DNA of 37,702 nucleotides from Calditrichia bacterium. Its GTDB lineage: Bacteria > Calditrichota > Calditrichia > Calditrichales > Calditrichaceae. Each line of letters begins with the position of its first letter. Position 1 is the stretch's first letter. Positions 1,366 to 37,702 of the stretch are shown in pieces. The translations under genes and the position numbers were made by a program. The stretch lies in the NCBI GenBank assembly GCA_026983775.1, contig JALSTK010000147.1, positions 1 to 37,702 of the forward strand, read 5' to 3'. The notes below the pieces were generated by a model. That model had not been told where the DNA came from. It was given only the letters and a program-made list of their open reading frames with translations, and searched no databases.

Positions 1366-1533
1366 ATGATCGGAGTCAATGTCAGTAATTACAGTAACTT
1401 TGACGCAGCCTTAAAAGCGTTTATTTCCAAGGTTCGGCGGGAACGTATTATCGATACCATAAATCGGAAAGCACATTATATGAGTCCCAGTGAAAAACGA
1501 CATCGTTCGCATCTTAAGAAAAAACATCTATAA
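1366..1533 (+). CDS. rpsU: 30S ribosomal protein bS21
   Basis: Small basic ribosomal protein of the 30S platform, near the anti-Shine-Dalgarno end of 16S rRNA, that assists initiation. The 55-residue product begins MIGVNVSNYSNFDAALKAF, continues with the basic helix around SKVRRERIIDTI, and ends with the signature PSEKRHRSHLKKK. Length and motif order match S21 well. A G-rich ribosome binding site (AGGGGG) lies just upstream of the ATG. The gene stands 64 bases after fmt and may be transcribed from it or from its own promoter. Confidence 0.93.
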   Translation: MIGVNVSNYSNFDAALKAFISKVRRERIIDTINRKAHYMSPSEKRHRSHLKKKHL

Positions 1534-16535: not shown

Positions 16536-17945
16536 ATGGATAAGAGGCAGAGAACCATAAAAAAGACGATTTCTCTGAGCGGGAGAGGGCTGCATACGGG
16601 TAATGAGACGACCATTACTTTTAAACCGGCTCCAGTCAATTACGGGCGTAAATTTGTGCGTATTGACATCCCTAATTCACCGGAAATTCCGGCTCTGGTT
16701 GACTATGTGGTTCAGGACCAGGAAATCGATAGTTTACGTGGGACTACCCTCAGGGTTGATAAAGTTGTGGTACATACGGTTGAACATGTTTTGGCGGCCC
16801 TGGCCGGCTTGGAAATTGATAACGTGCGTATCGAATTAAACGGCAACGAACCTCCTATCGGAGACGGTTCCGCTATGCCCTTTGTGAATGTCCTTCTGGA
16901 AGCGGGGATAGAAGAACAAGAGGCCATGAAAGAGTATGTGATTATTGATGAACCGTTGAGTTATTCCGACGAGCAACGGGGAATTGAATATGCCGCTCTG
17001 CCCACAGATGATTACCGAATTACCGTAATGGTAGATTATAAGAATCCGGCTTTAGGAAGTCAACATACGGGAATGTTCTCTCTGGAACGGGAATTTATTT
17101 CTGAATTTGCGCCGGCCAGAACCTTCTGCTTTTTACACGAAGTTGAAATGCTGGCCGAACAGGGATTAATTAAAGGCGGAGATCTGGATTCCGCCGTGGT
17201 TATTGTAGATCGCAAGCTAACCGCAGATGATCTGAATCGCCTGAAAAAAATGTTTCATATCGATGAGGCCGTCGAATTGGGAACCAACGGCATTTTAAAT
17301 AATAAAACATTGCGTTTTAAAAATGAACCATGCCGTCATAAGCTATTGGATTTAATCGGTGATCTGGCTCTGGCCGGAGTCAATATAAAAGCGCAAATCC
17401 TTGCCGCACGTCCGGGACATCAAAATAATATCGAATTTGCACGCCAAATCCGCAACTATTATAAAAAGCAATCGCTCACCCGAAAATTTCAGGATATAAG
17501 CCGGAAAGGGGTTGTTTTTGATATCAATGCTATTAAGAAAATTTTACCCCATCGCTATCCCTTTTTATTGGTGGATTCCATTATTGAATTTGAGCCCGAG
17601 AAACGTGCGGTAGGTGTAAAAAACGTGACCATGAATGAGCCCTTTTTTCAGGGCCATTTTCCGCAAAAACCCGTCATGCCGGGGGTTTTGATTGTGGAAG
17701 CCATGGCTCAGGTCGGCGGTATTTTATTGTTGAATGAACAGGCTGAAGTGGAAAATAAACTTGTCTTTTTTATGGCCATCGATAATGTACGTTTTCGCAG
17801 AATCGTTCAACCGGGAGACCAACTGGTGATGGAACTCGAAATGTTAAAAAACAGGCGTACCACTTTTAAAATGGCAGGGAAGGCCTATGTGAAGGGCGAA
17901 TTGGTTTGTGAAGCTGAAATGATGGCTGCAGTAAGGGAAAATTAA
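16536..17945 (+). CDS. lpxC-fabZ: Fused LpxC deacetylase - FabZ dehydratase
   Basis: Bifunctional 469-residue protein. Residues 1 to about 310 are UDP-3-O-acyl-GlcNAc deacetylase (LpxC), the committed zinc-dependent step of lipid A synthesis. Its zinc/active-site motifs are TVEHVLAALAGLEIDN, GDGSAMPF and RHKLLDLIGDLALAG. From about residue 325 it is 3-hydroxyacyl-ACP dehydratase (FabZ), with the catalytic His in ILPHRYPFLLVDSI and Glu in PGVLIVEAMAQVGG. No stop, frameshift or internal ribosome site separates the parts. The fusion is known in Bacteroidota and related FCB bacteria and puts two enzymes competing for hydroxyacyl-ACP flux on one chain. GGAG precedes the ATG; lpxA follows after 11 bases. 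Confidence 0.97.
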   Translation: MDKRQRTIKKTISLSGRGLHTGNETTITFKPAPVNYGRKFVRIDIPNSPEIPALVDYVVQDQEIDSLRGTTLRVDKVVVHTVEHVLAALAGLEIDNVRIELNGNEPPIGDGSAMPFVNVLLEAGIEEQEAMKEYVIIDEPLSYSDEQRGIEYAALPTDDYRITVMVDYKNPALGSQHTGMFSLEREFISEFAPARTFCFLHEVEMLAEQGLIKGGDLDSAVVIVDRKLTADDLNRLKKMFHIDEAVELGTNGILNNKTLRFKNEPCRHKLLDLIGDLALAGVNIKAQILAARPGHQNNIEFARQIRNYYKKQSLTRKFQDISRKGVVFDINAIKKILPHRYPFLLVDSIIEFEPEKRAVGVKNVTMNEPFFQGHFPQKPVMPGVLIVEAMAQVGGILLLNEQAEVENKLVFFMAIDNVRFRRIVQPGDQLVMELEMLKNRRTTFKMAGKAYVKGELVCEAEMMAAVREN

Positions 17946-35713: not shown

Positions 35714-35781
35714 TTGACATGAATGGGCAAATTCATTAAAATCAAAAGCTCATGGAATTTATTATTTAGCCATAGAAGGAG

Positions 35782-36504
35782 TTGAATATCGCGAAGATTT
35801 GTCCGAAATGCGGGACTGAAAACGTAGATAATGCCAGATTTTGTATAAATTGTGGCTCACCGATGGCTTCCGTTAAATCCGGCACACCCACTGCCCAAAC
35901 CTCAAAAGCCTCATCTAAGATCGATTCTTATGTAATCCTTGGCGGAGTGTTTGTGCTTACTTTAATAATCATTTTACTGGTTTTGAGTTCCAATCGTAAA
36001 ACCTTAAATGCAAAGTTGGAAAAAGTGCGTAACCGTAGTGCAACATCTATGGAAGCTTCGGCTCAACAACCACCCATGGAAGTCATGCAAAAAATCCAGG
36101 GTTTAAAAGATGCTTATCAACAAAATCCGCATGATTTATCTACTTTAGTCAATTTGGGAAATAGTTATTTCGATATCAATCGCTTCAATCAAGCTGTTTT
36201 TTATTATAGAAAGGCAATTGCCTTAAAGGGTGATCAACCCGATGTCCTCATTGATCTGGGCATATCCTATTTCAATCTGCAGCATGGTGATTCGGCTATT
36301 TATTTCGTAAAAAAAGCTTTAGAGTTCAGCCCGAATCATCTTACGGGAATGTATAATTTAGGAATTATTTATTACAACTTAAAACAGAAGGATAAGGCGA
36401 TTCAAACCTGGCAAGAGTTAATCAAAAAAAGTCCTGAAAGTCGTGAAGCTCAGGCCGCAAAGCAGTTTATCAATCAAATTAAAGATAAAATAAATAAGTC
36501 GTAA
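35782..36504 (+). CDS. Zinc-ribbon, membrane-anchored TPR protein
   Basis: A 240-residue protein with an N-terminal zinc ribbon (C7-X2-C10 and C21-X2-C24). A hydrophobic helix follows at about 49-68 and then three or so tetratricopeptide repeats over about 107-225, for example LVNLGNSYFDINRFNQAVFY and MYNLGIIYYNLKQKDKAI. It is probably an inner-membrane scaffold with the ribbon in the cytoplasm and the repeats outside. The TTG at 35782 is the only ordinary start that keeps the ribbon, but it directly touches GAAGGAG (35775-35781), leaving no spacer. ATC at 35788 would have normal spacing, which makes the true start uncertain. The partner is unknown. Confidence 0.78.
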   Translation: MNIAKICPKCGTENVDNARFCINCGSPMASVKSGTPTAQTSKASSKIDSYVILGGVFVLTLIIILLVLSSNRKTLNAKLEKVRNRSATSMEASAQQPPMEVMQKIQGLKDAYQQNPHDLSTLVNLGNSYFDINRFNQAVFYYRKAIALKGDQPDVLIDLGISYFNLQHGDSAIYFVKKALEFSPNHLTGMYNLGIIYYNLKQKDKAIQTWQELIKKSPESREAQAAKQFINQIKDKINKS

Positions 36505-36520
36505 AGAAGAGGAAGTATTT

Positions 36521-36616
36521 ATGCCAAGTGGTAAAAAACGGAAACGGGCAAAAATGGCAACCCATAAACGGAAAAAACGTTTACGTAAGAACCGCCATAA
36601 AAAGAAAAACCGTTAA
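36521..36616 (+). CDS. mS38/AURKAIP1-COX24-like small ribosomal protein
   Basis: A 31-residue, very basic peptide (two-thirds Lys, Arg or His). The sequence begins MPSGKKRKRAKMATHKRKK and ends in an RKNRHKKK motif. It matches the short bacterial proteins of the AURKAIP1/COX24 domain, homologous to the C-terminus of mitochondrial ribosomal protein mS38 and comparable to mycobacterial bS22. These bind rRNA in the small subunit near the decoding region. A good purine-rich site (AAGAGGAAG) lies nine bases before the ATG. A hairpin with a T run follows directly after. It is too small to be picked up by ordinary gene calling. Confidence 0.85.
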   Translation: MPSGKKRKRAKMATHKRKKRLRKNRHKKKNR

Positions 36617-36621
36617 AATTC

Positions 36622-36651
36622 AAGGGTTCATTTTCTAATGAGCCTTTTTTT
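36622..36651 (+). terminator. Intrinsic terminator after the mS38-like gene
   Basis: AAGG plus TTCATT (36622-36632, with one bulged G at 36626) pairs with AATGAG plus CCTT (36637-36646) around a four-base loop, and a seven-T run ends at 36651. It lies only eight bases before the first possible xseA start. Confidence 0.75.
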
Positions 36652-36659
36652 ATTATTTT

Positions 36660-37702
36660 ATGGGTGTGCCCATGATTGCATCGCACATATTTTCAGTCAG
36701 CGAAATTACTTCGACCATCAAACTCCTTCTTGAAGAAAACATTCCTACAATTTGGGTCGAAGGGGAAGTCTCAAACTACAAGGCCCATTCCAGCGGTCAT
36801 TTCTATTTTACACTCAAAGATTCAAATGCACAAATATCCTGTGTTATGTGGCGCTCCAGAGCCTATCATCTAACCTTTCTACCGGAAGATGGGATGCAGA
36901 TTCAGGTTAACGGCAACATCCGGGTATATGAAAAAGGCGGGCGGTACCAATTAGATGTTTTAGCCATGCAACCCGTCGGGCAGGGTAGATTACAACAGCA
37001 ATTTGAAGCATTAAAGCAAAAACTTCAGGCCGAGGGATTATTCGCAGAAGACCATAAAAAACCGTTACCGCAATTTCCGGAAAAAATCGGTATTGTCACT
37101 TCGGATACGGGAGCTGCTTTACGCGACATCCTGAACGTTTTACGCAGAAGAGCACCCCATGTTCAGGTTGTTCTCAGACCAACCTTGGTGCAGGGAGCCG
37201 GCGCAGCAGAAGACATCTCGAATGCCATTGATGAATTGAATCGTTTTGGTGCATTGGACCTTCTGATTGTAGGGAGAGGAGGCGGTTCTCTGGAAGACCT
37301 GTGGCCCTTCAATGAAGAACGAGTGGCAAGAGCTATTTACGATTCACACCTACCGGTTATATCTGCTGTCGGACATGAAATTGATTTTACTATTGCTGAT
37401 TTTGTGGCAGATTTACGGGCACCGACTCCTTCTGCTGCAGCAGAATTAGCTGTGCCGGACTATATACAAATTCACGAGGACCTGCTTTATTACATGACTC
37501 GTCTTGCGCGGATCATGAAACAGAAAATCAGCCAGGGTTATCAAAAAATTGATGCGGTACAAAGAAGCTATGGATTTCGTCGGCCGGAAGATATAGTTCG
37601 TCAGTATGCCTTGCACATCGACGATTTAAGTAATCAGTTGGAACGTATAATGGGGCAAATCCTGCAAGAAGAAAGAACTTCTCTGCAACAAATCGAACAA
37701 CG
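36660..37702 (+). CDS. xseA: Exodeoxyribonuclease VII large subunit, 3' end missing
   Basis: Nuclease subunit that, with XseB, degrades single-stranded DNA. The frame stays open to the edge of the window, giving 347 codons of an expected 400-450. The N-terminal OB-fold has IPTIWVEGEVSNYKAHSSG and FYFTLKD. The catalytic part has KIGIVTSDTGAALRDILNVL, LLIVGRGGGSLEDLWPFNE and VISAVGHEIDFTIADFVAD, followed by the coiled-coil region. Starts are possible at ATG 36660, GTG 36666 and ATG 36672. The last gives MIASHIFSVSEITSTIK, closest to the usual family start. No strong Shine-Dalgarno sequence is visible. Confidence 0.96.
   Translation, partial: MGVPMIASHIFSVSEITSTIKLLLEENIPTIWVEGEVSNYKAHSSGHFYFTLKDSNAQISCVMWRSRAYHLTFLPEDGMQIQVNGNIRVYEKGGRYQLDVLAMQPVGQGRLQQQFEALKQKLQAEGLFAEDHKKPLPQFPEKIGIVTSDTGAALRDILNVLRRRAPHVQVVLRPTLVQGAGAAEDISNAIDELNRFGALDLLIVGRGGGSLEDLWPFNEERVARAIYDSHLPVISAVGHEIDFTIADFVADLRAPTPSAAAELAVPDYIQIHEDLLYYMTRLARIMKQKISQGYQKIDAVQRSYGFRRPEDIVRQYALHIDDLSNQLERIMGQILQEERTSLQQIEQ

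Follow-up and report, generated by a model that had tools for sequence, protein, structure and literature searches.

A gene for a 31-residue bS22-type ribosomal protein upstream of xseA in a Calditrichia genome

The ribosomal protein bS22 has been located in a pocket of the 16S rRNA in Borrelia, Flavobacterium johnsoniae and Mycobacterium smegmatis (PMC10618245). The pocket is described as being formed by h2, h27, h44 and h45 in Borrelia, where the protein also contacts H68 of the 23S rRNA (PMC10618245), and by h27, h44 and h45 in Cutibacterium acnes, with a contact to H67 (PMC10085706). In M. smegmatis the protein was named uL41 (= bS22) and placed in a pocket of h27, h44 and h45 near the decoding centre (PMC5876184). 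Structural likeness between bS22 and the mitochondrial protein mS38 is stated in three papers (PMC10618245, PMC10085706, PMC6582356), and in yeast mS38 is reported to restrain h44, with efficient initiation on COX mRNAs said to depend on it (PMC6582356). The composition of the small subunit varies among the bacteria concerned: Escherichia coli is described as having no bS22 (PMC10085706), M. smegmatis as having no bS21 (PMC5876184), and both proteins are described in B. burgdorferi and F. johnsoniae (PMC10618245). The B. burgdorferi gene was itself unannotated and begins with GUG, and bS22 was the one ribosomal protein not detected there by tryptic LC-MS/MS (PMC10618245); trypsin would cut a peptide as basic as this into very small fragments. 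Here, a gene of this type is reported from a member of the Calditrichia and compared with these systems.

The window, that is, the whole stretch of DNA that was analysed, comprises 37,702 nucleotides of contig JALSTK010000147.1 (assembly GCA_026983775.1). The features relevant to the analysis are as follows.

1366..1533, + strand: second, divergent bS21 paralogue, 55 aa, outside the bS22 unit (PF01165, 42.4 bits; cut-off 27)
35714..35742, + strand: promoter-like TTGACA-17-TAAAAT directly past the stop of the preceding gene (consensus scan, 11/12 matches)
35782..36504, + strand: protein with zinc ribbon, membrane segment and TPR-like part, 240 aa with the listed TTG start (ORF; domains by inspection)
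36509..36513, + strand: Shine-Dalgarno (SD)-like GAGGA, 7 bases before the ATG (sequence)
36521..36616, + strand: bS22 gene, 31 aa and stop (ORF, PDB matches, single genome match, conservation, codon changes)
36622..36647, + strand: intrinsic-terminator-like hairpin of 11 pairs, then a T-rich tail (scan)
36660..37702, + strand: xseA, exodeoxyribonuclease VII large subunit, running off the window (ORF; name by inspection)

Elsewhere in the window, positions 16536-17945 hold a frame that resembles an LpxC-FabZ fusion on inspection of its translation.

The sequence-only reading had proposed a tiny gene for a basic peptide at 36521-36616, and an exact ATG-to-TAA frame is indeed present there on the forward strand, encoding 31 residues (MPSGKKRKRAKMATHKRKKRLRKNRHKKKNR) that are rich in lysine and arginine and strongly basic. 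The ORF before it stops 16 bases short of this ATG, and on the opposite strand the complementary frame is interrupted by a stop. The duplex of the bases upstream of the ATG with the 16S tail was calculated at -7.4 kcal/mol, a value equalled at 9.4% of 2000 random window positions. The AlphaFold2 model of the peptide is a single helix over residues 4-30 (mean pLDDT 86.6); DSSP assigned an unbroken helix 4-30 to this lone chain, whereas the papers describe a bend in the helices of bS22 and mS38, one that may need rRNA. A lone predicted helix of 31 residues says little about function.

The identity of the peptide was indicated by a search of PDB chains, in which only three distinct sequences were matched up to E 10, all of the bS22 type. 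These were 9I5V chain 10, titled 'AURKAIP1/COX24 domain-containing protein' (E 4.8e-9), 7JIL chain 5, named both S22 and L38 (E 2.2e-8), and 8FMW chain V, named bS22 (E 8.9e-6); neither of the two whose organism is identified (7JIL, 8FMW) is a ribosome of this lineage, and none is named in the papers cited here. In all three the alignment is gap-free from the first residue to residue 28 or 29, and the parts of the chains typed into alignment A1 are 90% (9I5V), 86% (7JIL) and 71% (8FMW) identical to the window peptide. Entry 7JIL is the F. johnsoniae ribosome (PMC9976891), whose 30-residue bS22 (chain 5, with four later entries) shares the N-terminus MPSGKKRKR with the window peptide and was matched over residues 1-29, with few substitutions among the 29 typed into A1. 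The B. burgdorferi protein (8FMW chain V, bb0822) was matched over residues 1-28, and its gene differs in the start codon, ATG being used in the window instead of GUG. The Mycobacterium and Cutibacterium proteins (uL41), published in the corresponding pocket (PMC10618245, PMC10085706, PMC5876184), are represented by PDB chains that were not reached at E<=10 by profile A1 or by the wider profile A2; the C. acnes protein is reported to share 37% identity with that of F. johnsoniae (PMC10085706).

Curated models recognize the peptide poorly. The Pfam model COX24_C (PF08213) gave 13.8 bits against a cut-off of 23 (E 0.057) and matched 9 of the 16 A1 members at E<=1 (best 0.045); searched against the window's own genome it returned nothing at E<=10, and among 14 control genomes it had matches in three, above the cut-off in one. 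No NCBIfam model matched the window peptide. The AURKAIP1/COX24 motif proposed earlier is thus supported in part, being detectable below the Pfam threshold and not with NCBIfam. By contrast, the statement that such genes are often missed by annotation was fair: neither Pfam nor NCBIfam calls this peptide, and the Borrelia gene had gone unannotated as well (PMC10618245). Taken with the PDB matches, these results describe a ribosomal protein of the bS22 type that escapes the curated models. The probability that positions 36521-36616 hold a genuine gene for bS22, a part of the small subunit predicted by homology to lie in the 16S pocket, is put at about 96%.

The proposed kinship with mS38 was also considered. 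Neither the window peptide nor profile A1 matched any mS38 chain in the PDB at E<=10, and profile A2 reached three such chains at E 0.015, 0.25 and 3.9, which is suggestive but not significant. Two of these are longer than bS22 (128 and 137 residues), and the third has 31 residues. Since sequence reaches mS38 at E 0.015 at best, the status of bS22 as the bacterial counterpart of mS38 rests on the published structures (PMC10618245, PMC10085706, PMC6582356).

The matches could in principle reflect composition or charge. A purely compositional match was rejected by a control: at E<=1e-3, 20 shuffled versions of the peptide gave no match among 16,465 stop-to-stop frames taken from 112 loci, compared with 40 matches for the real peptide under identical settings. 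A related reading is that of a cationic antimicrobial-like peptide, secreted or intracellular, which would resemble bS22 in charge only. Free C. acnes bS22 is reported to inhibit E. coli cell-free translation and, in disc assays, the growth of both E. coli and staphylococci (PMC10085706), and the lysine/arginine content of the window peptide fits such an activity. However, 16 columns are invariant across the 13 window and locus peptides and the three PDB chains of A1, a position-specific pattern; the shuffled peptides found nothing; no signal peptide was seen by eye; and the gene adjoins xseA in each of the 30 loci compared within the class (the window's own and 29 relatives). This reading is thus very improbable.

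The double naming of one PDB match raises a further alternative, namely that the peptide is another tiny ribosomal protein such as bL38. The same 30-residue sequence in the group of 7JIL chain 5, comprising that chain and four later entries, carries two labels, '30S ribosomal protein S22' and '50S ribosomal protein L38'. The two proteins are nevertheless kept apart in PMC10618245, in which bS22 is a helix in the 16S pocket and bL38 consists of beta strands near H95/uL6, and the F. johnsoniae bS22 is named as such. The window peptide is predicted to be helical, and it directly matches the chain named bS22 in 8FMW, the entry of that same paper. Assignment to bL38 or a similar protein is accordingly extremely improbable.

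The identification as bS22 is accompanied by a wide distribution. The gene was found in 38 of 40 genomes of the class and in all 23 of good quality (completeness of 90% or more, contamination of 5% or less); no match was found in two class genomes, G002 (87% complete) and G024 (88%). The window's own genome (4.03 Mb in 179 contigs) holds one bS22 match at E<=10, and the gene is present in a genome of the same family assembled as one contig of 4,978,541 bases (G005). In class genome G014 a further bS22-like match, at C228:6854-6919, covers only residues 1-22 (86% identity) and may reflect contamination or the end of a contig. In a wider sample searched with profile A1, bS22 was detected in 159 of 385 genomes, that is, by subtraction, in 121 of 345 outside the class, counts in which some weak matches may be false and from which divergent forms such as the actinobacterial one may be missing, because A1 was built on this type of bS22. 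The gene is near-universal in the class and frequent in the sample of other bacteria.

Conservation is also visible at the codon level. The first 30 codons of the window gene were compared with those of 39 homologues (29 of the class and 10 from the named xseA loci described below). Among 657 changed codons in these 39 pairwise comparisons, which share ancestry and all take the window as reference, 536 carried synonymous changes only and 121 were non-synonymous, against an expectation of about 20% synonymous for random single changes; 613 of 851 base differences from the window fell at third codon positions. This pattern indicates purifying selection on the bS22 frame among relatives. The sequence-only reading had looked to relatives for conservation of the frame, and such conservation is found there, both in the 38 of 40 class genomes and in the mostly synonymous changes. 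That the frame is an untranslated chance opening, as its shortness and the lack of a Pfam or NCBIfam call at cut-off might suggest, has a probability close to nil, being contradicted by the PDB matches to bS22 chains, the class distribution and the codon changes, and opposed also by the SD-like site upstream, the empty shuffled control and the single match in the own genome.

The gene order TPR-bS22-xseA is kept in the class. The downstream xseA lies on the same strand as bS22 in all 30 class loci, and 28 of them carry a homologue of the zinc-ribbon/TPR gene upstream of bS22, again in the same orientation (at a distance of 460 bases in L014), the contig stopping before the TPR position in the remaining two (L022 and L023). 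Outside the class, the named xseA relatives (45-58% identity) include a Deferribacteres bacterium, KSB1, Neomarinimicrobiota, Zixiibacteriota and others. Within the flanks examined, bS22 was found upstream of xseA on the same strand in 10 of 80 such loci: two titled only 'bacterium', one KSB1, one uncultured Deferribacteres and six Neomarinimicrobiota. The gap between the two genes in these 10 loci ranged from 93 to 2742 bases, and a TPR homologue was found in none of them. The named xseA relative with the best E value, L033, showed no bS22 in the 2.2 kb upstream of xseA. The linkage of bS22 to xseA is therefore loose outside the class. In four of the 10 loci (L034, L035, L038 and L039) bS22 begins with TTG, a further reason why gene callers could miss it.

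Transcription signals around the gene were assessed by simple scans and by their recurrence. The scans found three promoter-like sites in the region, against a mean of 3.6 in shuffles, and one terminator-like site, against a mean of 1.1; as neither signal exceeds the shuffles, recurrence is the evidence. The strict promoter form TTGAC[AT]-N17-TAAA[AC]T was present before the TPR gene in 10 of the 30 class loci, the window's own included and a few of the 30 ending short of the promoter stretch, and it gave seven matches in loci L033-L112. Immediately past the bS22 stop, 19 of the 30 class loci have a compact stem followed by a T-rich tail, 18 of these loci belonging to the same order as the window and one to a different family of the class; a 20th locus (L029) has only a weak and different hairpin, and 10 have none by the same criterion. 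Neither the terminator-like hairpin nor the promoter-like site extends across the whole class. The window's bS22 gene is likely co-transcribed with the preceding zinc-ribbon/TPR gene, and the transcript would end at the hairpin after bS22.

The placement of the protein can be proposed by analogy with its homologues. The Calditrichia bS22 is predicted to be buried in the 16S pocket of h2, h27, h44 and h45 below the decoding centre, where its lysine and arginine side chains would neutralize phosphates of the pocket helices and hold h44 in place; one end of the protein may reach the 23S rRNA and so provide an extra inter-subunit bridge. The location, the bridge and any effect on decoding or initiation should be read as drawn from the homologues.

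The presence of bS21 in the same window had been taken as a hint of non-standard small-subunit composition in this lineage. The window does contain a bS21 gene by its PF01165 match, but this is a second, divergent copy, and the main rpsU (bS21, 65 aa) is on another contig (C21). The hint was overstated, given that bS22 was found in 121 of the 345 genomes outside the class and that the published co-occurrence of the two proteins in Borrelia and Flavobacterium (PMC10618245) makes the pair not unusual. When aligned with the main bS21 and with the second bS21 proteins of relatives, the window bS21 proved to be of a distinct second type. A bS21 match was obtained in 38 of the 40 class genomes and two PF01165 matches in 17 of the 40, the own genome included and one second match falling below the cut-off. 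Among second copies sampled from 10 of 16 relatives, nine resemble the window copy, with a KSHYISPSxKRH-like signature; the second bS21 of G015 (L140) looks canonical. The distance between second bS21 and bS22 is about 10 kb in G005 (L134, G005:C1:3191800-3203500), 31 kb in G008 (contig C143) and 35 kb in the window; in other drafts with both genes they are on different contigs, and the nearness in the three genomes may be plain synteny.

Paralogues of bS21 are listed for many other phyla and are hypothesized to change which mRNAs are initiated, with support in Francisella (PMC9976891). It is conceivable, though rather unlikely, that two kinds of 30S subunit exist here, in which bS22 is constant and canonical bS21 is exchanged for the second type, changing mRNA choice; bS22, being next to h44/h45, could modulate that choice. 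Ribosomes of Bacteroidia are reported to fail to recognize SD sequences (PMC9976891). A Bacteroidia-like lack of SD use was looked for in the present organism and not found: its own 16S keeps the anti-SD, carrying GGATCACCTCCTTTCT, and 13 of 26 window starts, hand-picked from ORF lists and some possibly wrong, pair better than -6 kcal/mol, compared with 18.5% of 2000 random positions. The retained anti-SD and the enrichment of SD-like sites thus distinguish this organism from the Bacteroidia, the F. johnsoniae system included.

The gene in the window is an ordinary, well-supported bS22, by which a known protein is extended to another lineage. After the structures from Mycobacterium, Flavobacterium, Cutibacterium and Borrelia its presence is not surprising, though it is of use in annotation. 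Wherever ribosome composition is modelled on E. coli, bS22 will be missed, and proteomics databases built from annotation may miss it too.
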